Shown piece by piece: positions 3,903 through 60,767 of a stretch of 64,000 nucleotides of DNA. The translations under genes and the position numbers were made by a program. The stretch is from Planctomycetota bacterium (GTDB lineage: Bacteria > Planctomycetota > Phycisphaerae > Sedimentisphaerales > Anaerohalosphaeraceae), in the NCBI GenBank assembly GCA_029552545.1, contig JAKPDO010000051.1:1-64000 (forward strand). Direction: 5' to 3'. Position 1 is the stretch's first letter, and the number at the start of each line of letters is the position of its first letter. Below the pieces are notes generated by a model that searched no databases, was not told the DNA's origin, and worked only from the letters and a program-made list of their open reading frames with translations.

Positions 3903-6746
3903 ATGTCGGATACAGAGAAAACAGGATATCGTCATACGTTAAATCTGCCGCAGACGAGTTTTGCGATGAAGGCCAACCTCGTGCAGCGCGAGCCGCAGCA
4001 GCGGAAGGCCTGGGAGAAAGAGGACATCTACGGCAAGATTCTCCAGGCCCGGCAGGGGGCGCCTTTGTATGTGCTCCATGACGGCCCGCCGTATGCCAAC
4101 GGCGATATCCACATGGGACACGTCATCAACAAGGTGCTCAAGGACTTTGTCGTCAAGTACAAGACGATGAGCGGCTTTCTCTGTCCCTATGTGCCCGGCT
4201 GGGACTGTCACGGTCTGCCGATTGAAGTGAAGGTGATGGCCGAACTGGGCGAGGCCGCCCGCACGATGAGCAAACTCGAAATCCGCCGACAGTGTCATAA
4301 ATATGCCAGCAAGTATGTCAAGCTACAAACCAAGCAGTTCCAGTCGCTGGGCGTCTTCGGGGATTTCGCCAATCCGTATCTGACCCTCAAGCCGCAGTAT
4401 GAGCAGGGGATTCTCGAAGTCTTTGCGGAACTGGTCGGCAACGGGCTGGTGTATAAGCAGCTCAAGCCCATCCATTGGTCGGTGGGCTGTCAGACGGCCC
4501 TGGCCGATGCGGAACTCGAATACAAGGACATTGCCTCTCCGAGCATCTACGTCAATTTTCCGCTGGAGGAGCCGTCGGCGGCTCGGGTGCGTCAGATGGG
4601 CTTGGCCGATGCAGACAGCACGGTCTGCTTTATGATTTGGACGACGACGCCCTGGACACTGGCGGCCAATCTGGCGGTGGCGCTGCATCCGCATCTGGAG
4701 TATGTCTGTCTGTCGTACACAAAGAACGGCCGCAAATGGGCCTCGATTGTCTGCAAGAGCCGTCTGGAGGCGGTTGTGGCTGCTGCGGGCTTGACGGAGG
4801 GAACCTACACCGTCAGCGCCTCGCGGCTCGGCAGTGAGTTTCAGGGCCTGCGGTACCGCCATCCCTTTGTGGAGAAAAATCCGACGGACAAAGATGCCTG
4901 GTTTGCCATCAATGAAACGTTTGTGACGACGGAAGACGGCACCGGCATTGTGCATATCGCCCCCGGCCACGGCGAGGAGGACTATCAGGCCGGACTGAAC
5001 AACAATCTGGCGGTTTATTCTCCCGTTCAGGACGACGGCTGCTATGATCAGACCGTGCCGGCCTGGCTGGCGGGCAAAAATGTCCTGCAGGTGGACCCGG
5101 TGGTCAACGAGCATCTCCGTCAGATCGGCCTGCTGGTGCACGAGGAAAAAATCGTTCACAGTTATCCGCACTGCTGGCGCAGCAAGATGCCCGTCATCTT
5201 CCGCGCCACGGAGCAGTGGTTTATCAGTGTGGACAAGCCCGCCGCCGCCTTCGGCAAATCGCTGCGGCAGATGGCCCTCGAACAAATCGGACAGGTCCGC
5301 TGGATTCCCGCCTGGGGCGAAAAGCGCATCCGCGGCATGCTCGAGACGCGTCCGGACTGGTGCATCAGCCGCCAGCGGGCCTGGGGGCTGCCGATTCCGG
5401 CCTTTACCAACAGTCAGGGCAAGGTGCTCCTGACGCGCCAGTCCGTGCTGGCCGTCGCCCGCCATATCGGACAAAAGGGCTCCGACAGCTGGTTTACGGA
5501 TTCCCCGCGCCAGCTCCTCGGCGAAGATTTCCCGCTGCCGGAGGGTTTCTCCTGGGACGACCTGCACAAGGAAGACAACATCTTCGATGTGTGGTTTGAA
5601 TCCGGCTGCAGCTGGCATTCCGTCGCCGTCAAGGCGGGCTGGCCCATTCCGGTCGATTTGTATCTGGAGGGGTCCGATCAGCACCGCGGCTGGTTCCAGC
5701 TGTCGCTGCTGCCGGCGCTGGGAGCGGTCGGCAAAGCGCCGTTCAAGACGGTCCTCACGCACGGCTTTACCGTCGATGAGAAAGGAATGAAGCAGTCCAA
5801 ATCCGCGGGCAACTATGTCAGCGCCCTGGAAGAAATTGAAAAATACGGCGCCGACATCCTGCGGCTCTGGGTGGCCAGCGTCAATTATCAGGAGGATATG
5901 CGATGCAGCGATGAGCTCATCGGGCGTCTCCAGGAGGCCTACCGGAAGATTCGAAACACCCTGCGCTATCTGCTGGGCAATCTGGAGGACTTTGACCCGG
6001 CGAAGATGACGGTGCCGTATCCCGACCTGCTGCCGCTGGATCAGTGGGCGATGGAGGCCCTCCAGAAGCTGATCATCCAGGTCCGGCAGGCCTACGAAGA
6101 CTTTGCATTTCACCGGGTCTTTTCGCTCCTGTACAACTTCTGCGTCGTCGAGATGAGCAGCATCTATATGGATGTCCTGAAGGACCGAATGTACTGCGAC
6201 GGAACCGACAGCCGCAGCCGGCGCAGCGGACAGACCGTGATGTATGCGATTCTGGATGCGCTGGTTCGAATGCTGGCTCCGATTCTGGTGCATACGGCCG
6301 AGGAGGCCTGGGCGGCCGTCCCCTTCAAATCCGAACCGCTGGACAGCGTTCATCTGGCCGGGATGCCGCAGCCGGATGCGTCGATTCCCTGGGAAGCTAA
6401 CGAGCCCAAATGGCAGAAGATTCTGGCCCTGCGCGACGAAGTCCTTCGCGTCCTCGAGCCCCTGCGGAAAAACCAGGTCATCGGTTCCAACCAGGAGGCC
6501 TGGGTCCGCCTGACCGTGCCCGAAGAGGAGTATGCTCTTCTGGAGCAGCTCGGCGCCCAGACCTTCGCCTCGCTGTGCATCGTCAGCGGCGTCACGGTCG
6601 AAAAGGGTCCGGCCCTCCGGGTTGCCGCCGACCGAAGCCCCTATCCCAAATGCCAGCGCTGCTGGAACTATTGGCCCTCCGTCGGTCAGAACAGCGAGTA
6701 TCCGGACCTGTGCGCCCGCTGCATCCAGGTCCTTCAGCAGGGATAA
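3903..6746 (+). CDS. ileS: Isoleucine--tRNA ligase
   Basis: 947 aa, normal length for bacterial IleRS. It charges tRNA-Ile in the cytoplasm. The class I signature HMGH is at residues 70-73, after GPPYANGD. The editing (CP1) domain shows TTPWTLAAN and GTGIVHIAPGHGEED. The catalytic domain continues with WCISRQRAWGLP and EGSDQHRGWF. The KMSKS loop reads KQSKS (630-634), an unusual Met-to-Gln change. The C-terminus ends in a four-cysteine zinc finger (C917, C920, C937, C940), as in E. coli-type enzymes. A small two-gene unit starts 6 bases after the stop and may be co-transcribed. Confidence 0.97.
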   Translation: MSDTEKTGYRHTLNLPQTSFAMKANLVQREPQQRKAWEKEDIYGKILQARQGAPLYVLHDGPPYANGDIHMGHVINKVLKDFVVKYKTMSGFLCPYVPGWDCHGLPIEVKVMAELGEAARTMSKLEIRRQCHKYASKYVKLQTKQFQSLGVFGDFANPYLTLKPQYEQGILEVFAELVGNGLVYKQLKPIHWSVGCQTALADAELEYKDIASPSIYVNFPLEEPSAARVRQMGLADADSTVCFMIWTTTPWTLAANLAVALHPHLEYVCLSYTKNGRKWASIVCKSRLEAVVAAAGLTEGTYTVSASRLGSEFQGLRYRHPFVEKNPTDKDAWFAINETFVTTEDGTGIVHIAPGHGEEDYQAGLNNNLAVYSPVQDDGCYDQTVPAWLAGKNVLQVDPVVNEHLRQIGLLVHEEKIVHSYPHCWRSKMPVIFRATEQWFISVDKPAAAFGKSLRQMALEQIGQVRWIPAWGEKRIRGMLETRPDWCISRQRAWGLPIPAFTNSQGKVLLTRQSVLAVARHIGQKGSDSWFTDSPRQLLGEDFPLPEGFSWDDLHKEDNIFDVWFESGCSWHSVAVKAGWPIPVDLYLEGSDQHRGWFQLSLLPALGAVGKAPFKTVLTHGFTVDEKGMKQSKSAGNYVSALEEIEKYGADILRLWVASVNYQEDMRCSDELIGRLQEAYRKIRNTLRYLLGNLEDFDPAKMTVPYPDLLPLDQWAMEALQKLIIQVRQAYEDFAFHRVFSLLYNFCVVEMSSIYMDVLKDRMYCDGTDSRSRRSGQTVMYAILDALVRMLAPILVHTAEEAWAAVPFKSEPLDSVHLAGMPQPDASIPWEANEPKWQKILALRDEVLRVLEPLRKNQVIGSNQEAWVRLTVPEEEYALLEQLGAQTFASLCIVSGVTVEKGPALRVAADRSPYPKCQRCWNYWPSVGQNSEYPDLCARCIQVLQQG

Positions 6747-7009: not shown

Positions 7010-7599
7010 AATCCAATGAACACATGCTGACACTGGAGCCGCTGCTGCGGGTCTTTGAGATGCTGGGGATTTCCTATTACATCGGCGGTTCTTTAGCCAG
7101 TTCTGCGTACGGCATAGCCAGAGCGACCCTCGATATTGGTTTGGTGGCCGACATCCGGATGCATCAGGTTGAACCTCTGGCGGCGGCCCTCAAACCGTTT
7201 TTTTATATTTCGCCTCAAACAGCCGAACAGGCCATTGCCCGGCAAACATCTTTGAATCTGATTCATCTGCAGACGATGCTCAAAGTGGACATTTTTGTCT
7301 TGAGAAATGAGCCGTTTGATTGGACGGCTTTTCAGCGAAGAAGACAGGATACTTTTTCGGAAGAGCAGCCGCGGCCTATTTACCTGGCGACGGCGGAAGA
7401 TGTGATCCTCAGCAAACTTCGCTGGTATCGGCAGGGCGGCTGCACATCCGATCAGCAATGGAAGGATATTCTCGGCGTTTTGAAAGTCCAGACGCTGAAT
7501 CTGGACATACCGTATTTAAAAAAATGGTCCGCTCAGCTGGGAGTGTTGGACTTGTTCGAACAATCCCTTCAGCAGGCAGGAATCCAACCGACGTTTTGA
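7006..7599 (+). CDS. Nucleotidyltransferase-fold protein (AbiEii-like), possible toxin
   Basis: 197 aa. Residues 24-50 carry the minimal nucleotidyltransferase signature: YYIGGSLAS, then TLDIGLVAD. The usual form of the second element is xDIDxV, where the two Asp bind metal. Here the first (D43) is kept and the second is Gly (G45), so catalysis may be lost or altered unless D49 compensates. The C-terminal half (LATAEDVILSKLRWY and an RQGG...QWKDI segment) matches the helical part of this family. Relatives act as toxins that modify tRNA or proteins, or are uncharacterised. It overlaps its upstream partner by 4 bases, and an S9 peptidase gene follows 9 bases on. Confidence 0.7.
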   Translation: MKSNEHMLTLEPLLRVFEMLGISYYIGGSLASSAYGIARATLDIGLVADIRMHQVEPLAAALKPFFYISPQTAEQAIARQTSLNLIHLQTMLKVDIFVLRNEPFDWTAFQRRRQDTFSEEQPRPIYLATAEDVILSKLRWYRQGGCTSDQQWKDILGVLKVQTLNLDIPYLKKWSAQLGVLDLFEQSLQQAGIQPTF

Positions 7600-7608
7600 T
7601 TCGCAATT

Positions 7609-10125
7609 ATGACCCCTTTATACAAACAGATTTTTTTGACCGGTTTTCTGTTCTTGATGACACTCGGAAACGCACAGACTCTGGAAGAAAAATATCGGCG
7701 GGCTCTGGCAATCGAGCAAATCACAAGCGGCAAAGTCTTCAAAGAGAAGGTTGTGCCGTACTGGTTTGACGGCGGCAGTCAGTTCTGGTACCGCAATGAC
7801 CTGCCGGACGGGCGCAAAGAGTTCATCCGGGTTCATGCCCTCCGCGGCTACCGGCGGGAGGCCTTTGACCATGCCCGTCTGGCGGAGGCCCTTGCGCAGG
7901 TGTCGGGAGGACAGGTGGACCCGCAGCGTCTGCCCTTCGGACAAATCCGTCTTTCGGATGATGACGGTACCCTTGCTTTTTCCGCCTTTGGGAAAACCTG
8001 GAGGTGCGATTTAAATACGTATGTCCTTCAGGAATGCCCGCCGCAGGAGGGGCCGGCGGAAGTGCTCGGGCCCGAGGCGGACATCCGGCCCAGTCAGGAC
8101 AGTCAGGAGGAGACCTTCATTGTCTTCCGAAACCGCACCGACCGGCCCGTCCGGCTTTACTGGGTGGATACCGCCCGCCGCCGGCAGCACTATGCCGACC
8201 TGGCGCCCGGTCAGGAGCATCGCCAGCATACCTATGTCGGCCATGTCTGGCTGGCTGTCGACCCGAACGACCGTCCGCTGGCCGTCTTTATCGCCCAGTC
8301 CGATGAAGCCCTTGCCGAAATCACCCCCGACCTGCTGGCCGAGCCCAAAGTCCGTGACAGCCGCCGGTCTCAGCCGTCGCCCCTGCGCTCCCCGGACGGC
8401 AAATATCGCATTGTCGTTCGCGACCACAATCTTTTCCTGCAGGAAGCCGAAACCGGCACCGAAACACCGCTGACTGCGGACGGCACGGCGGAACACTTCT
8501 ACACCCGGCAGGTCTATTGGTCGCCCGACAGCCGCTGGCTGGCCGCCGTCCGGACCCGCAAGGGCTTTGACCGCAAAATTCACCTGATTGAATCCTCTCC
8601 CGAAGACCAGCTCCAGCCCAAACTGCACACCCTCTCCTATGCCAAACCCGGCGATGAAATCGACCGCGACAGTCCCTGTCTGTTCGACATCGAATCCCGA
8701 AAACAAATCCCAATTTCCGATGCGCTCTTTTCCAATCCCTGGTCCCTCACGGACTTCTGCTGGCAGCCCGACTCCAAACGCTTTCTGTTCTGCTACAATC
8801 AGCGGGGCCATCAGATCCTGCGGGTTTTGGCCGTCCGCGCCGAAGACGGGCAAGTGCAGACCGTCATCGAAGAAACCAGTCCGACCTTTATCGATTACGC
8901 CGGCAAATACTTCTTCCGCTATCTGGAGGCGACCCAGGAAATCATCTGGATGTCCGAGCGGGACGGCTGGAATCATCTCTATCTGTATGATGCTGCCGAA
9001 GGCCGTCTGAAAAATCAGATTACAAAGGGTCCCTGGGTCGTCCGGCGTGTCGTCGAAGTGGATGTTGAAAAGCGGCAGATTTGGCTGGAAGCCGGCGGCG
9101 TCCGCCCCGAGCAGGACCCGTATTATGTTCACGTCTGCCGCGTCAATTTTGACGGAACCGGTTTTGAGATTCTCACGGAAGGCGACGGGACCCACGAGGT
9201 CGAGTTTTCGCCCGACCGCCGTTTCTTTCTGGACCGCTGGTCGCGCGTCGATTTGCCCCCGATTACCGACCTGCGCAGTGCGGCGGACGGACGGCTCATC
9301 TGCCGGCTGGAGGAGGCCGACTGGTCGGCTCTGCTGGAAACCGGCTGGAAGCCGCCCATTCGCTTCGCCGCCAAAGGCCGCGACGGGCAGACCGATATCT
9401 ACGGCATCCTCATCCTGCCGTCCGCCTTTGACCCGAATGAAAAATATCCTGTCCTGGAGGAAATCTACGCAGGTCCGCAGGGGGCCTTTGTGCCCAAGGC
9501 CTTCGGCCGGCAGACCCGCCAGCGGCAGCTGGCCGAACTGGGGTTCGTGGTTGTCCAGATTGACGGGATGGGCACATCGTACCGCTCCAAGGCCTTTCAC
9601 GATGTCTGCTGGAAAAATCTGGGCGACAGCGGTTTTCCGGACCGCATCGCCTGGATGAAGGCCGCCGCCGAAAAATATCCGTTCCTCGACCTGACCCGCG
9701 TGGGCATCTACGGCGGCTCAGCCGGCGGGCAAAGTGCGCTGCGGGCCCTGCTGGCGCACGGAGATTTTTACAAAGCCGCCGCCGCCGACTGCGGCTGTCA
9801 CGACAACCGGATGGACAAAATCTGGTGGAATGAGTTGTGGATGGGCTGGCCGGTCGGCCCGCATTATGAGGAACAGTCCAACGTCACCAACGCACACAAA
9901 CTGACGGGCAGGCTCCTGCTGACCGTCGGCGAGCTGGACCGCAATGTGGACCCGGCCTCGACGATGCAGGTGGTCAACGCCCTCATCAAGGCCGACAAGG
10001 ATTTCGAGCTGCTCGTCATCCCCGGCGGGGGCCACGGAGCCGGAGAAACCCCCTACGCCAGACGAAAACGAATGGATTTCTTCGTCCGACACCTGCTCGG
10101 CATCGACCCGCCTGCGCGAAATTAA
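7609..10125 (+). CDS. Exported prolyl oligopeptidase-family (S9, DPP IV-like) peptidase
   Basis: 838 aa with an N-terminal signal peptide (hydrophobic stretch ending at GNAQ, ~22). Residues ~80-560 form the beta-propeller of the DPP IV N-terminal domain (for example YWSPDSRWLAAVR and MSERDGWNHLYLYD). The C-terminal alpha/beta hydrolase has the nucleophile in YGGSAGGQS (S704), Asp in VGELDRNVD (D777) and His in GGGHGAGE (H809). It should cleave dipeptides or short peptides, often after Pro or Ala, in the periplasm or outside. The glutamate motif of true DPP IV was not located, so substrate specificity is open. Confidence 0.92.
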   Translation: MTPLYKQIFLTGFLFLMTLGNAQTLEEKYRRALAIEQITSGKVFKEKVVPYWFDGGSQFWYRNDLPDGRKEFIRVHALRGYRREAFDHARLAEALAQVSGGQVDPQRLPFGQIRLSDDDGTLAFSAFGKTWRCDLNTYVLQECPPQEGPAEVLGPEADIRPSQDSQEETFIVFRNRTDRPVRLYWVDTARRRQHYADLAPGQEHRQHTYVGHVWLAVDPNDRPLAVFIAQSDEALAEITPDLLAEPKVRDSRRSQPSPLRSPDGKYRIVVRDHNLFLQEAETGTETPLTADGTAEHFYTRQVYWSPDSRWLAAVRTRKGFDRKIHLIESSPEDQLQPKLHTLSYAKPGDEIDRDSPCLFDIESRKQIPISDALFSNPWSLTDFCWQPDSKRFLFCYNQRGHQILRVLAVRAEDGQVQTVIEETSPTFIDYAGKYFFRYLEATQEIIWMSERDGWNHLYLYDAAEGRLKNQITKGPWVVRRVVEVDVEKRQIWLEAGGVRPEQDPYYVHVCRVNFDGTGFEILTEGDGTHEVEFSPDRRFFLDRWSRVDLPPITDLRSAADGRLICRLEEADWSALLETGWKPPIRFAAKGRDGQTDIYGILILPSAFDPNEKYPVLEEIYAGPQGAFVPKAFGRQTRQRQLAELGFVVVQIDGMGTSYRSKAFHDVCWKNLGDSGFPDRIAWMKAAAEKYPFLDLTRVGIYGGSAGGQSALRALLAHGDFYKAAAADCGCHDNRMDKIWWNELWMGWPVGPHYEEQSNVTNAHKLTGRLLLTVGELDRNVDPASTMQVVNALIKADKDFELLVIPGGGHGAGETPYARRKRMDFFVRHLLGIDPPARN

Positions 10126-52872: not shown

Positions 52873-55734
52873 TTACTTTACTATCCCTTCTTCGGCCAAT
52901 TTCTCCCGCAGGTATCGAGCGGTGTAGGAGTGGTTGTTTTCGACAATTTTTTCCGGAGTACCGGCGGCGATGACACGTCCGCCTTCCTCACCGCCTTCGG
53001 GGCCCAGGTCGATGATATAGTCGGCCATTTTGATCACATCCAGGTTGTGTTCAATGACGATGACAGTATTGCCCATATCGGTCAGACGCCGCAGCACGGT
53101 CATCAGGTTGTCAATGTCGGCAAAGTGCAGACCGGTGGTGGGTTCGTCGAGGATATAAAGGGTATGGCCGGTGCCGGGTTTGCCCAGCTCGGCGGCCAGC
53201 TTGACCCGCTGGGCTTCGCCGCCGGACATCGTGGTGGAGGACTGCCCGAGGGTCATGTATCCCAGCCCGACATCGCAGAGGGCCTTGATGAGCCGGAGAA
53301 TCTTGGGGAAGTTGGCAAAAAACTGCCGCGATTCATCAATCCGCATATCCAGAACATCGGCAATGTTCTTGCCTTTGTAGGTAATCTGGAGGGTTTCGGG
53401 ATTGTAGCGTTTGCCCTTGCATTCCTGACAGGTGACGTACACATCCGGCAAGAAGTGCATTTCAATCCGGCGGGTCCCCTGCCCCTGGCAGAATTCGCAG
53501 CGTCCGCCTTTGACGTTGAAGCTGAACCGGCCGGGTTTGTAGCCGCGGATGCGGGCCTCGCGGGTCATGGCGAACAGCTGGCGGATGAGGTCAAACACGC
53601 CTGTATAGGTCGCCGGGTTGCTGCGGGGTGTCCGCCCGATAGGGGTTTGGTCGATTTCGATGACCTTGTCGATATTGGCAATCCCGAGGATGTTTTTGTG
53701 TTTGCCCGGTTTTTCGCGGGAGCCGTAGAGTCGGCGCTTGAGCCCTTTCAGGAGGATTTCGGTAATCAGGGTGCTTTTGCCGGAGCCGGAGACGCCGGTA
53801 ACGCAGGTGAGCACGCCGAGCGGAAATTTGACATCGATATTTTTCAGATTGTGTTCGGCGGCTCCCCGAACTTCGATGCAGTAAGACATTTTGACTTTGT
53901 GCCGGCGCGGGGGCATTTCGATGCGTTTGGCGCCGCTGAGGTATTGGCCGGTGATGGACTGCGGGCATCGGCAGACGTCTTCCAGCGAGCCGGCGACCAC
54001 GACTTCGCCGCCGTGGCTTCCGGCGGCCGGCCCGATGTCAATGATGTAGTCGGCCTGGCGGATGACCTCTTCGTCGTGTTCGACAACCAGCACGGTGTTG
54101 CCGATGTCGCGCAGACGCTTGAGGATATTCAGGAGCCGGTCATTGTCGCGCCGGTGCAGGCCGATAGTCGGTTCATCGAGCACATAGCAGCAGCCGACCA
54201 GCCCGCTGCCTACCTGCGTGGCCAGGCGAATCCGCTGGGCCTCGCCGCCGGAGAGCGTGCGGCTGGTGCGGTCTAACGTCAGATAGCCCAACCCGACATC
54301 TATCAGGAATTGAAGCCGGGCGCGGATTTCCTTCAGGGGCTGTTCGGCGATGACGGCCTGTTCGGGATTCAGCGGCAGTTCGGCAAAAAATTTCTGGGCG
54401 GCCTGCACGGTCATTTCGGTGATTTGGCTGATGTTTTTTCCGCAGATGGTTACGGCGGAGGCCTCCGGACGCAGCCGTGTTCCTTTGCAGGCCTGACAGG
54501 GCGTTTCGGACAGGTAGCCGTGCAGGCGGGCCTTGACATATTCGCTGGTGGTGTTTTCCCAGCGTCTGCGGAGATTGGGAATGACCCCTTCGAACGCCAT
54601 TCCGTAGTGGGCCTCGTCTTCGGGGGTCGTTCCGTAAAGGAGAATCTGCCGAATCGGTGCAGGCAGATTGCCGTAGGGCTCGCTTTTGCTGATGCCGAAC
54701 TGCCGGCAGAAGCGGTTGATGAGCCGATTGTAGTAAATGTTCATCCGTTTGCCGCCCTTGCGCCAGGCCTCGACGGCGCCGTTTTCGAGCGAGACGGATT
54801 TATCCGGCACAATTAAGTCCGGGTCAAACTCGAGGATGGTTCCCAGTCCGTCGCAGGCTGGACAGGCGCCGTAGGGACTGTTGAAACTGAAGAGACGAGG
54901 GCTCAGTTCCGGCAGGGAGGCCTCGGGATGATCGGGACAGGCGAATTTTTCGCTGTAGATGACGTCGCGCCACTGGCCGTCGCCGCCGTTGTCTTTTTTC
55001 TCTTCGGGCGTCTGCACCATCACCAGGACAAGCCCATCCCCGATTTTCAGGGCGGTTTCGATGGAGTCGGCCAGCCGGATGCGGATGTTGTCTTTCAGAA
55101 TCAGCCGGTCCACGACGGCGGCAATGTCGTGTTTTTTGTTTTTGTCCAGTTTTGGGATGTTTTTGATGTCATAGATGACGCCGTCCACCCGGGCCCGGAC
55201 GAAACCGTCCCGCTGAATCTGAGCGAAGATGTCCCGGTGTTCTCCTTTTTGACCGCGGACAATCGGGGCGCAGATCTGAATGCGGGTATTTTCCGGCAGA
55301 GACAGGATGGAATCGACAATCTGGGTGGTGTGCTGCGACTGAATCGGCCGGCCGCATTTCCAGCAGTGGGGCTGTCCGATGCGGGCAAACAGCAGGCGGC
55401 AGTAGTCGTAGATTTCCGTCGTGGTTGCCACGGTCGAGCGGGGATTGCTGGAGGCGCTTCGCTGTTCGATGGCAATTGTGGGAGGCAGTCCCTCGATGTG
55501 CTCGACGTGGGGTTTCTGCATCTGTTCGAGGAACTGGCGGGCGTAGGCGCTGAGGGATTCGACGTATTTACGCTGGCCTTCTGCGTAGATGGTGTCAAAG
55601 GCCAGCGAGCTTTTTCCCGAACCGCTCAAACCGGTAATGACAACCAGTTTGTCGCGGGGAATATCGACGTTGATGTTTTTGAGATTATGTTCGGCCGCAC
55701 CGCGGATGCGGATGTATTTCTGCGAATCATTCAT
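52873..55734 (-). CDS. uvrA: Excinuclease ABC subunit A
   Basis: 953 aa from the ATG at 55734 ([20 protein letters not shown]); an in-frame ATG at 55779 would add 15 residues. It is the DNA-damage recognition ATPase of nucleotide excision repair. First Walker [10 protein letters not shown] (35-43), first zinc module with CPDH...[11 protein letters not shown] signature [13 protein letters not shown]. The second half has GVSGSGKST, zinc module CEFCQGQG...CQECKGKRY and [13 protein letters not shown]. It is divergent from endonuclease V across a shared promoter. Confidence 0.96.
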
Positions 55735-55804
55735 CGCTGTCAAACTCGCTTCTTGAGGTTTCTGCTCTCTTATCTCCATTTAAAGAGAATACGCCAAACT
55801 TACC

Positions 55805-55834
55805 ATTGTACCGGAAAAGTCGGGCGTGTACAAT
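55805..55834. promoter_or_regulatory. Symmetric bidirectional promoter of uvrA and nfi
   Basis: ATTGTAC (55805-55811) and GTACAAT (55828-55834) are inverted repeats. On the plus strand they give TTGTAC-17-TACAAT toward nfi, and on the minus strand the identical TTGTAC-17-TACAAT toward uvrA. Each hexamer is -35 for one gene and -10 for the other. Confidence 0.65.
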
Positions 55835-55869
55835 AGCCGGTCGGGTTTTTTGCAGGATGCGATAACGCT

Positions 55870-56544
55870 GTGCAAATCAAACACTTACATTCATGGCAGG
55901 TGAGCCCGAAAGAGGCGGCATCGATTCAGAGCCGGCTGGCCGGCCTTGTTCAGTTTTGTCCGCTTCCAAAACGCATTCAGACGGCGGCCGGTCTGGATTG
56001 CGCCTTCAGCGGGGATGGGCTGCAGATGGCGGCGGTGATTGTAGTGCTGTCGTTTCCGCAGCTGGAGATGCTGGAGGTTGTGCAGGCCCGGGACAAGGTG
56101 CGGTTTCCGTATGTGCCGGGTCTTCTTTCGTTTCGCGAAGCGCCGGTCTGTCTGAAGGCTGCCGAGAAACTCAAAATCCGGCCTGATGTGTTTCTCATCG
56201 ATGGACAGGGTATTGCTCATCCCCGACGGCTGGGGCTGGCTTCGCATCTGGGCCTGTGTCTGGATGCTCCGGCAATCGGGTGTGCCAAAAGCCGTCTGTG
56301 CGGGGTGTATGAGGAACCCCAAACAGAAAAGGGCAGCTGGAGCCCTCTCTGGGTGGATGGTCAGCCGGCGGGGGCTGTGGTGCGAACCCGCAGGGGCGTA
56401 AAACCTCTGTTTGTCTCCGTCGGGCATCGGGCGGTTCTGGAGGAGGCGGTTGACTTTGTGCTGGCCTGCTGCCGGCGGTACCGCCTGCCGGAGCCGACTC
56501 GCCTGGCCCACCAGCAAGTGAGTCTGCTGAAGAGACAGCTTTAA
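55870..56544 (+). CDS. nfi: Endonuclease V (deoxyinosine repair)
   Basis: 224 aa starting at GTG 55870. It cleaves DNA near deoxyinosine and other deaminated bases. Motifs: TAAGLDCAF (D43), FPYVPGLLSFREAP (wedge PYVPG, E91) and LIDGQGIAHPRRLGLASHLG (D112), then GCAKSRLCG. The acidic triad matches the family. The start lies ~30 bases after the predicted transcription start. Divergent from uvrA, so two DNA repair genes share one control region. Confidence 0.94.
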   Translation: MQIKHLHSWQVSPKEAASIQSRLAGLVQFCPLPKRIQTAAGLDCAFSGDGLQMAAVIVVLSFPQLEMLEVVQARDKVRFPYVPGLLSFREAPVCLKAAEKLKIRPDVFLIDGQGIAHPRRLGLASHLGLCLDAPAIGCAKSRLCGVYEEPQTEKGSWSPLWVDGQPAGAVVRTRRGVKPLFVSVGHRAVLEEAVDFVLACCRRYRLPEPTRLAHQQVSLLKRQL

Positions 56545-57102: not shown

Positions 57103-57120
57103 GGACAAAGAGTTTTGTCC
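57103..57120. promoter_or_regulatory. Inverted repeat in the PL11 leader
   Basis: GGACAAA-GAGT-TTTGTCC has perfect 7-bp arms and a 4-base centre. It lies 33 bases before the ATG at 57154 and could act as operator or RNA hairpin. Confidence 0.4.
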
Positions 57121-57153
57121 TTCAGAGAGTCCCTTTTTGAGAGGCGAAAACGG

Positions 57154-58905
57154 ATGAACCGAAGAGGATATCTGGGGATTATTGTTTTTCTTTGCGGTTC
57201 GCTGGTTCCGGCGGCCCGGCAGCCCGCGGAGAATTTGGACAGAGGATTGATTGCCGTGGTTCAGTCTCCTTCGCGGGTCTATTTGGGCTGGCGGCTGCTG
57301 AAAACGGACCCGGCGGACATCGGCTTTCATCTTTATCGGATTACCGACGGCGGCGAGCCCGTCAAGCTCAATTCCGAACCGATGACGAGTTCCACAAATT
57401 TTGCGGATGAATCCGCCCCGCTCGATAAGCCCAACCGCTGGCGGCTGACGATGGTTCTCGGCGGGGAAGAAAAAGAGGCGGCGACGGTTGACCTGCCGGC
57501 CAATCCTTCCGTGCGTTCCTATATCTCCATTCCGTTTCAGGGCAATTATGTCTGCAGCAAAGTTGCTATAGCCGACCTGAACGGCGACAGACGATATGAT
57601 TTTGTCATCAAGCAGCCGCAGCAGACAACCGACCCGGGGGTCTGGCAGAAAAGCACCGATACGTTCAAGGTCGAGGCCTACCTTCACGACGGCACGTTTC
57701 TGTGGCGCAAGGACCTCGGGTGGAATATTGAACAGGGGGTCTGGTGGTCGCCGATGGTGGTCTTTGATTTTGACGGAGACGGCCGGGCGGAGGCGGCCCT
57801 TAAGACCGCCCCGACCGATGTCGATTACCGCAACCCCGACGGCCATCCCTATCCGGGCCGCGTGATGTCCGGGCCGGAGTATGTATCGCTTCTGGATGGG
57901 ATGACCGGCCGGGAGCTGGACCGGGCTGACTGGCCCGCCCGCGGACGTGTGGAGGACTGGGGTGATGAGAAAAACAACCGCGCCTCCCGGCATCTGCTCG
58001 GGGCGGCCTATCTGGACGGAGTTCGTCCGAGTCTGATTGTTCTGCGCGGCACCTATACGCGAATGCGGGTGGATGCCTACAATGTGGCCGACCGCAAACT
58101 GCAGAAGGTCTGGAGCTGGGACGGCGATGCGGAGGTGCCGCCGGTGCGCGGGCAGGGCATGCACGGGATGCATGCGGCGGATGTGGACGGCGACGGACGG
58201 GATGAAATCATTCTGGGAGCGGCCGTGCTCGATGACAACGGCAAAATCCTCTGGAATACCGGCCTGGGGCATCCGGACGGCTGCTATGTGACGGATATTT
58301 ATCCGCAGCGGCCCGGGCTGGAAATCCTTTACGGGATCGAGCCGCCGCAGGAGAAAAACGGCATTTGCATCGTGGATGCCAAAACTGGCGAGATTCTCTG
58401 GGGCTGTGAGCATCCGACGGCGCACGTCCACAGCCAGGGCCTGTTCGGTGAGTTTGACCCGGACAATCCCGGATACGAGTTTTATACCGGCGAAAAGGAC
58501 CGCTCCCGACACTGGACGTACAGTGTGGACGGACGTCTGCTTTCGGAGGAATCGATGAGCACCCTGGCGCCGACGCCGCTGTATTGGCTGGATGGGCCCC
58601 TGAAGATGATTGCCGAGCAGGGACAAATCCGCCGATATAAAGGCGAAGCGGTGGGCCGTTACGAAGGGCGCATTTTGGCTGTGGCGGATATTCTGGGTGA
58701 CTGGCGGGAGGAATTGATTACAACCGTGCCGGGTGAACTGCGGATTTATACAACGATGCATCTGTCCCGGCAGCGCCGGATATCGCTGATGCAGGATGCG
58801 ATTTATCGGCTGGATGTCGCGATGGTTTCGATGGGTTATTTTTATCCGCCGCAGCGGAGCGAGTATTTTGCACTGGATGTCCCGCCGGCGGTTCAGAAAC
58901 CCTGA
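57154..58905 (+). CDS. Rhamnogalacturonan lyase, PL11 family
   Basis: 583 aa from the ATG at 57154, GAGAGG ~8 bases upstream. Signal peptide ~1-20. An N-terminal fibronectin-like module (ENLDRGLIAV...RVYLGWRLL) is followed by an eight-blade propeller with calcium-binding DxDGDG loops (FDFDGDGRAE, ADVDGDGRDE, ADLNGDRRYD). HAADVDGDG and GDWREEL are PL11 segments. It cleaves the rhamnose-galacturonic acid backbone of pectin by beta-elimination, outside the cell. The second PL11 gene starts 14 bases after its stop. Confidence 0.92.
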   Translation: MNRRGYLGIIVFLCGSLVPAARQPAENLDRGLIAVVQSPSRVYLGWRLLKTDPADIGFHLYRITDGGEPVKLNSEPMTSSTNFADESAPLDKPNRWRLTMVLGGEEKEAATVDLPANPSVRSYISIPFQGNYVCSKVAIADLNGDRRYDFVIKQPQQTTDPGVWQKSTDTFKVEAYLHDGTFLWRKDLGWNIEQGVWWSPMVVFDFDGDGRAEAALKTAPTDVDYRNPDGHPYPGRVMSGPEYVSLLDGMTGRELDRADWPARGRVEDWGDEKNNRASRHLLGAAYLDGVRPSLIVLRGTYTRMRVDAYNVADRKLQKVWSWDGDAEVPPVRGQGMHGMHAADVDGDGRDEIILGAAVLDDNGKILWNTGLGHPDGCYVTDIYPQRPGLEILYGIEPPQEKNGICIVDAKTGEILWGCEHPTAHVHSQGLFGEFDPDNPGYEFYTGEKDRSRHWTYSVDGRLLSEESMSTLAPTPLYWLDGPLKMIAEQGQIRRYKGEAVGRYEGRILAVADILGDWREELITTVPGELRIYTTMHLSRQRRISLMQDAIYRLDVAMVSMGYFYPPQRSEYFALDVPPAVQKP

Positions 58906-58919
58906 ATTGGGGGATGTGT

Positions 58920-60767
58920 ATGAGTTTTCGCTGGATATGCGTGTGGATTTTGCTGACGGGGGCGGGCTTGTTTGCTGCCCCATACCAACGGCAGATGGAA
59001 GCGCCTGACCGGGGGCTGGTCGCCCTTGTGGACAAGCCCGGCCGGGTCTTTCTGAGCTGGAGGATTCTGGGGACCGAGCCGGAGTCGATTGCCTTTGATG
59101 TGTATCGGCAGACGGAAGACGGCGAGCCGGTTCGGCTGAATGAAAAGCCCCTGACCGGCGGAACATGGTTTTCGGATGAGACGGCGGATTTGACGCGGAC
59201 GAACCGCTATTTTGTGCGGGCGGTTCCGGACGAGCGGCAGGGCCCTCCGTGCCGTGTCGCGGAAGTGAAGGCCAATCCGCCGGTGCGGCCGTATCTGTCA
59301 ATTCCGCTGCAAACCCTGCCGCAGCATCGTCCTTCAGATGCGGCGGTTGGGGATTTGGACGGCGACGGACGCTATGAAATCGTCCTCAAGCAAGAGATGC
59401 GTCCGCGGGATAATGCGCACAACGGGCTTACCGGCCAGACCAAACTGGAGGCGTATGACCTGGACGGGCGGTTTCTGTGGCGGATTGATTTGGGAAAAAA
59501 TATCCGAGAAGGAGCTCACTATACGCCGTTTCTTGTCTATGATTTGGATGGGGACGGTCGGGCGGAGGTTGCCGTGCGCACATCTGACGGCACGGTGGAC
59601 GGCACCGGCAAGGTCATCGGCGACCCGAATGCTGACTGGCGCGAGGAGAACGGACGAATCCTCCGCGGTCCGGACTATCTGACAATTTTTGACGGGCGCA
59701 CCAGTGCCGAACAGGTGACGGTCCCCTATATCCCGCCGCGCGGAAATGTGCGGGACTGGGGCGATGCAACCGGCAACCGCTCGGACCGCTTTCTGGCCTG
59801 TGTCGCCTATCTGGACGGGGAGCGTCCTTCGCTGGTGATGTGCCGGGGCTATTATACGCGGACGGTGCTGGCGGCCTGGAACTGGCGGGATGGGAAGCTG
59901 ACGAATCTGTGGGTTTTTGACAGTGATGCGGGCCCGGAGAGCAATCGGGCGTACCGCGGACAGGGCAATCACAATCTGGCTGTCGGGGATGTGGACGGCG
60001 ACGGCAAAGACGAAATCCTCTACGGGGCCTGTGCGATCGACCACGACGGCAGGGGCCTGTATTCCACCGGTTTGGGGCACGGGGATGCGATGCATCTGGC
60101 GGAGATTGACCCGGACCGGCCGGGGCTGGAAATCTTTGCCATCCATGAAAACCCGCGTCATCCGAACGGAGCCAATCTGCGCGATGCGGCGACCGGAAAG
60201 GTCCTTTGGGGGCTGGATTCGAAAGATGCGGTGCGGGGAGTCGCAATGGATATTGACCCGCGGCATCGGGGATATGAATGCTGGGCCTTCGGCAGCGGTC
60301 TGCAGGGCTTGTACAGCTGCAAAGGCCAAAAGATTGCCGAGCGGTCGCCGCGCTCCTGCAATCTGGGGATTTGGTGGGACGGCGACCTGCTGCGGGAGCT
60401 GCTCAACGGAACGCGCATTACGAAATGGGATTTCGAAAATCTGACGGAAACGATTCTGCTGGACGGCTGGGATTCTGACTGTGTCCGCGTAAACGGCTCC
60501 AAATCCACCCCTTCTTTTTACGGGGATATCCTGGGTGACTGGCGGGAGGAGGTCATTTGGCCGACGCTGGACGGCAAAGAGCTTCGCATTTTTGTTTCGA
60601 CGCATCCGACGGAGCATCGGTTTTATACCCTGATGCACGACCCGATTTATCGGCTCAGCGCCGCCTGGCAGAATGTCGGCTACAACCAGCCGACGCAGGT
60701 GAGTTTTACTCTGGGCGAGGGGATGTCCGCTCCGCCCCGGCCCCCAATAAAAACCCCCAGGCCCTGA
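58920..60767 (+). CDS. Rhamnogalacturonan lyase, PL11 family (second copy)
   Basis: 615 aa from the ATG at 58920, GGGGG 6-7 bases upstream; ATG 58914 is too close to that site. Signal peptide ~1-20. Same architecture as the upstream paralogue: APDRGLVALV...RVFLSWRIL, calcium loops GDLDGDGRYE, YDLDGDGRAE and GDVDGDGKDE, and GDWREEVIWP. The overall divergence suggests a different mode, perhaps endo versus exo. The stop codon lies in the loop of a terminator hairpin that serves the opposite strand. Confidence 0.93.
   Translation: MSFRWICVWILLTGAGLFAAPYQRQMEAPDRGLVALVDKPGRVFLSWRILGTEPESIAFDVYRQTEDGEPVRLNEKPLTGGTWFSDETADLTRTNRYFVRAVPDERQGPPCRVAEVKANPPVRPYLSIPLQTLPQHRPSDAAVGDLDGDGRYEIVLKQEMRPRDNAHNGLTGQTKLEAYDLDGRFLWRIDLGKNIREGAHYTPFLVYDLDGDGRAEVAVRTSDGTVDGTGKVIGDPNADWREENGRILRGPDYLTIFDGRTSAEQVTVPYIPPRGNVRDWGDATGNRSDRFLACVAYLDGERPSLVMCRGYYTRTVLAAWNWRDGKLTNLWVFDSDAGPESNRAYRGQGNHNLAVGDVDGDGKDEILYGACAIDHDGRGLYSTGLGHGDAMHLAEIDPDRPGLEIFAIHENPRHPNGANLRDAATGKVLWGLDSKDAVRGVAMDIDPRHRGYECWAFGSGLQGLYSCKGQKIAERSPRSCNLGIWWDGDLLRELLNGTRITKWDFENLTETILLDGWDSDCVRVNGSKSTPSFYGDILGDWREEVIWPTLDGKELRIFVSTHPTEHRFYTLMHDPIYRLSAAWQNVGYNQPTQVSFTLGEGMSAPPRPPIKTPRP

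Follow-up and report, generated by a model that had tools for sequence, protein, structure and literature searches.

Probable interlocked promoters between the divergent repair genes uvrA and nfi in an order of uncultured bacteria

Introduction

Divergent genes whose core promoters occupy the same few turns of DNA have been described in several bacterial systems. In the Pc/Pr pair of the Bacillus subtilis plasmid pLS20, each proposed −10 box doubles exactly as the −35 box of the opposing promoter, and polymerase occupies only one of the two promoters at a time (PMC4207663). There, unequal promoters, the regulator RcoLS20 and DNA looping together make a switch (PMC4207663). The bidirectional promoters studied by Warman, Grainger and colleagues have a single shared −10; their starts are mostly separated by 18 bp, sometimes by 10 or 23 bp (PMC10268837, PMC12825309). 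Five such promoters tested in E. coli fired too little at basal level for the two directions to compete, whilst strong activation in one direction repressed the other (PMC12825309). For a repair gene, the relevant precedent is E. coli uvrA, which has a control region common to the divergent ssb gene (Brandsma et al. 1983, cited in PMC9505508); there the −35 region of uvrA holds a LexA SOS box, and ssb has three promoters. Here we describe a short symmetric element between uvrA and nfi in a Phycisphaerae genome and compare it with the equivalent regions of its relatives.

Results

A symmetric element between two repair genes

The window, which is the whole stretch of 64,000 nucleotides that was analysed, carries uvrA on the minus strand (52873–55734; excinuclease ABC subunit A, TIGR00630, 1385 bits) and nfi on the plus strand (55870–56544; endonuclease V, PF04493, E 9e-73, with a GTG start), separated by a region of 136 bp. 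The uvrA start is most likely at 55734; there is an alternative in-frame ATG at 55779, and, counted in this longer frame, alignments to homologues begin around residue 16. An nfi locus 92% identical to this one is present in another record named as a Phycisphaerae MAG. Further along the window, two adjacent plus-strand genes (57115–58905 and 58914–60767) resemble, by eye, paralogous rhamnogalacturonan lyases.

The element at 55805–55834 reads ATTGTACCGGAAAAGTCGGGCGTGTACAAT, a perfect inverted repeat of the form ATTGTAC-N16-GTACAAT that holds both proposed core promoters. On the plus strand TTGTAC (55806–55811) is followed after 17 bp by TACAAT (55829–55834), and the minus strand reads identically, exactly as the initial annotation had it. 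On each strand TTGTAC matches TTGACA at three of six positions and TACAAT matches TATAAT at five of six. A promoter scan gave one 9/12 match, on the minus strand, with TGTACA as −35 and a 16-bp spacer.

The perfect repeat occurs once in the 3.09-Mb assembly, and six matches with at most three mismatches were found in the window, against 0.75 expected. Its sole other near-perfect copy, with one mismatch, stands at C40:156313–156342 just upstream of a NifU-like gene; it has no divergent partner, and its position before a gene read one way is consistent with a promoter. A match with one mismatch to the pattern CCAAACT-N4-ATTGTACC was rejected, as it falls inside a coding frame resembling tryptophan synthase beta. 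Symmetry of this kind is in itself a poor guide to function: there are 228 perfect inverted repeats of 7 bp in the window when loops of 3–30 are allowed, and the chance of one in random sequence like the intergenic region is 0.15 for such loops and 0.03 for loops of 15–18. That the repeat is a functionless accident is nonetheless contradicted by the order-wide conservation of both arms and of the distance between them, described below, and has next to no probability. It is this conservation in relatives, and not the inverted repeat itself, that marks the element as more than chance.

Conservation of the arms and of their spacing

Among the 98 relatives searched, nfi was found in 73 and uvrA in 91. 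We read the upstream regions of 38 divergent nfi-uvrA loci from 23 genera, referred to below as linked, and of about 45 loci in which uvrA is not directly beside nfi. Loci with a fic gene between uvrA and nfi were counted apart from the unlinked uvrA loci in the final tally. The arms were located by consensus scoring, which favours finding them.

A recurring layout emerged in the linked loci, namely (CCAAAC)-N-ATTGTA-n-CA, about 14 unconserved bases, and GTA(A/C)AAT, so that the whole element may be written ATTGTA.CA-N-GTA(A/C)AAT in the 38 relatives. Most arm positions hold roughly 1–2 bits of information, compared with roughly 0.04–0.6 bits at most spacer positions, and both arms vary at position 3 of the −10. 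The distance between the arms is 16 bp in 16 loci, 17 bp in 20–21 and 18 bp in one. Judged from these alignments, both arms are conserved over the whole order in loci with the divergent pair. The initial annotation had staked its reading on the repeat being kept in close relatives with the same gene pair, and in the 38 loci the element is indeed kept. Only five of the 38 are perfectly symmetric: the window species together with its two closest relatives, and two further loci. In family f2 a longer palindrome around CCAATTTGG was seen by eye and dropped because it is not conserved in other families.

The right arm follows nfi and the left arm follows uvrA

Separation of the two genes in some lineages provides a natural test. 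A −10 of the form TA.A.T is kept in the right arm in 32 of 38 linked loci and in four of 22 loci with neither nfi nor fic as neighbour (Fisher p 8.5e-7); counted by genus, the figures are 20 of 23 and four of 15 (p 3e-4). These p values overstate independence because the loci are related by descent, which the genus counts reduce in part. The left arm persists at uvrA loci flanked by neither nfi nor fic. In genera with both states, the right-arm −10 is lost in g17 and g5 and in one of two cases in g12; g13 is without it in both states, its right arm having no good −10 even when nfi is adjacent. Since the right arm usually decays and the left arm stays when nfi leaves, we take the right arm to belong to nfi and the left to uvrA.

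In several genomes of family f7 (L052, L079, L081, L082 and L028; also L201, L217 and L221) a fic-like gene of about 450 amino acids lies between uvrA and nfi in the nfi orientation. The family f7 layout is that of a divergent fic-nfi operon facing uvrA, and a good right-arm −10 is kept in two of the six such loci scored. A record titled as a Pseudomonadales MAG (L012) also holds both genes, an nfi 51% identical to that of the window and a fic gene 47% identical (4001–4645 and 7365–8630, within about 3 kb of one another), which may reflect transfer or misbinning.

Assignment of promoter elements

The uvrA −10 is the minus-strand hexamer TACAAT at 55805–55810, which survives the separation of the two genes. 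On the uvrA strand it forms an extended −10, TGnTACAAT, in 28 of 38 linked and 26 of 29 unlinked loci; the window species has CGG instead of TGn. The nfi −10 is the plus-strand TACAAT at 55829–55834, which is TAAAAT in most other genera and follows TA(A/C)AAT in the right arm generally. TG at the extended −10 position of the nfi strand was found in none of the 38 linked loci. From the distance to each −10, transcription of uvrA is predicted to start at 55798–55800 on the minus strand (A 55800 or G 55799) and that of nfi at 55839–55841 on the plus strand. No start-site map for Planctomycetes was found in the literature searched. By eye, the recA upstream regions of the order carry elements of the TTGACA-N-TATACT type, and therefore the order appears to use a canonical housekeeping sigma factor.

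The predicted uvrA start and first transcribed bases coincide with a block, CCAAACT at 55794–55800 (AGTTTGG on the uvrA strand), that is conserved in most families of the order, f1, f2 and f7 among them, with or without an adjacent nfi. Family f5 has ATTCCG in its place.

The −35 elements are less distinct. For uvrA, the weak −35 region lies at 55827–55833 on the minus strand and can be read either as TGTACA (55832–55827; 16-bp spacer, 4/6) or as TTGTAC (55833–55828; 17-bp spacer, 3/6). In relatives the usual candidate is TTTACC or TTTACT, 16–17 bp away and with a 4/6 match. The best uvrA −35 match averages 3.82 of six in linked and 3.45 in unlinked loci, against a background of 2.87. The nfi −35 region, TTGTAC at 55806–55811 on the plus strand with a 17-bp spacer, is a 3/6 match, and across the loci the nfi mean of 3.24 is hardly above the same background.

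These weak matches, above all that of nfi, bear on whether the arms do double duty. It is conceivable that they are independent −10 elements only, with neither serving as a −35 and with their 16–17 bp separation inherited and not selected. An extended −10, as on the uvrA side, can dispense with a −35, and uvrA in genus g43 has lost the right arm, as such an account would allow. Against it, the separation has stayed within 16–18 bp over 23 genera while the spacer bases change freely, and the uvrA −35 in linked loci matches better than background. We regard independent −10 elements as rather unlikely, though the possibility deserves real weight. The near-fixed distance is in keeping with a −35 role of each arm for the promoter facing it, which is suggestive only.

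A damage-responsive operator is improbable

The initial annotation raised the possibility of a damage-responsive operator, in which the inverted repeat would bind a dimeric regulator such as LexA and repress both genes until DNA is damaged. The dyad is perfect in the window species, the genome encodes a LexA homologue, and E. coli uvrA is SOS-controlled through an SOS box common to divergent ssb (PMC9505508). The comparative data argue the other way. Perfect symmetry is not conserved beyond the few loci given above; the separation of the arms shifts by 1 bp between lineages (16, 17 or 18 bp), so that half-site spacing is not fixed; and the right arm decays after nfi leaves though uvrA remains. 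When the suggested search for GTAC-type inverted repeats before recA and lexA was made, the upstream regions of up to 40 relatives scored like shuffled sequence, with no match above it. Scans of the whole order for the pattern found it about once per genome and nearly always at uvrA or nfi, and there is therefore no regulon. A LexA or damage operator is rejected as far as sequence allows, and we hold it to be highly improbable.

In many relatives (L147–L149) lexA follows a short conserved frame with a KFGPGGDFV..WP motif; the two therefore probably form an operon, the frame encoding a small uncharacterised protein. Elsewhere in the order (L125, L127, L131) a TGACCATATA-like sequence stands just upstream of lexA, possibly a self-regulatory LexA site of this clade.

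Discussion

We consider it very probable that the element comprises two interlocked divergent promoters of the housekeeping (sigma70) type, one for uvrA and one for nfi. The uvrA −10, extended across most of the order, would come from the left arm and the nfi −10 from the right. As the arms are 16–17 bp apart, each −10 falls where the −35 of its partner would be, an arrangement conserved in the 38 loci. The right arm probably also supplies the weak uvrA −35, as TTTAC(C/T) in most genera and as TTGTAC or TGTACA here. The overlap of −35 and −10 elements proposed in the initial annotation thus stands as regards position, each arm lying at one −10 and at the −35 position of the other, whilst the −35 matches themselves are weak.

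A single RNA polymerase would cover both core promoters, and therefore only one gene should be initiated at a time. Mutual exclusion of the two polymerases, as first suggested, is accordingly to be expected from the geometry for each binding event. The balanced output that was supposed to result does not follow from the overlap, because the E. coli bidirectional promoters do not compete at basal activity. At low activity each gene probably fires independently, and only when one fires strongly should the other be reduced. It is very improbable that the overlap was selected as a regulatory device, with a putative regulator binding the AGTTTGG block so that activation of one repair gene shuts off the other; in that case the two pathways, nucleotide excision repair and repair by endonuclease V, would be deliberately anti-correlated across the entire order.

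How does the locus compare with the known systems? With the promoters of Warman, Grainger and colleagues it shares a short pseudo-symmetric core on which polymerase would bind in two mutually excluding orientations. Unlike them, it has two separate −10s, 18–19 bp apart, in place of a shared one, and its predicted starts are some 39–43 bp apart and not about 10, 18 or 23 bp. As in E. coli uvrA-ssb, the uvrA control region is common to a divergent gene of DNA repair or replication; the partner here is nfi, and no LexA-type element was found at uvrA-nfi. The likeness to pLS20 Pc/Pr is that −10 and −35 boxes appear to be swapped between divergent promoters, the starts and the exclusion at uvrA-nfi being predicted from sequence. 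The two differ in that no regulator is evident at uvrA-nfi and that both of its genes encode repair enzymes. The arrangement is already known from pLS20, and the uvrA-nfi pair reveals no new mechanism or damage-response circuit. Its interest lies in being a compact double promoter that an order of uncultured bacteria has kept, and in a built-in natural experiment: when one gene leaves, its own −10 decays and that of its partner persists, which makes the pair a good test object for the evolution of bases that serve two promoters.
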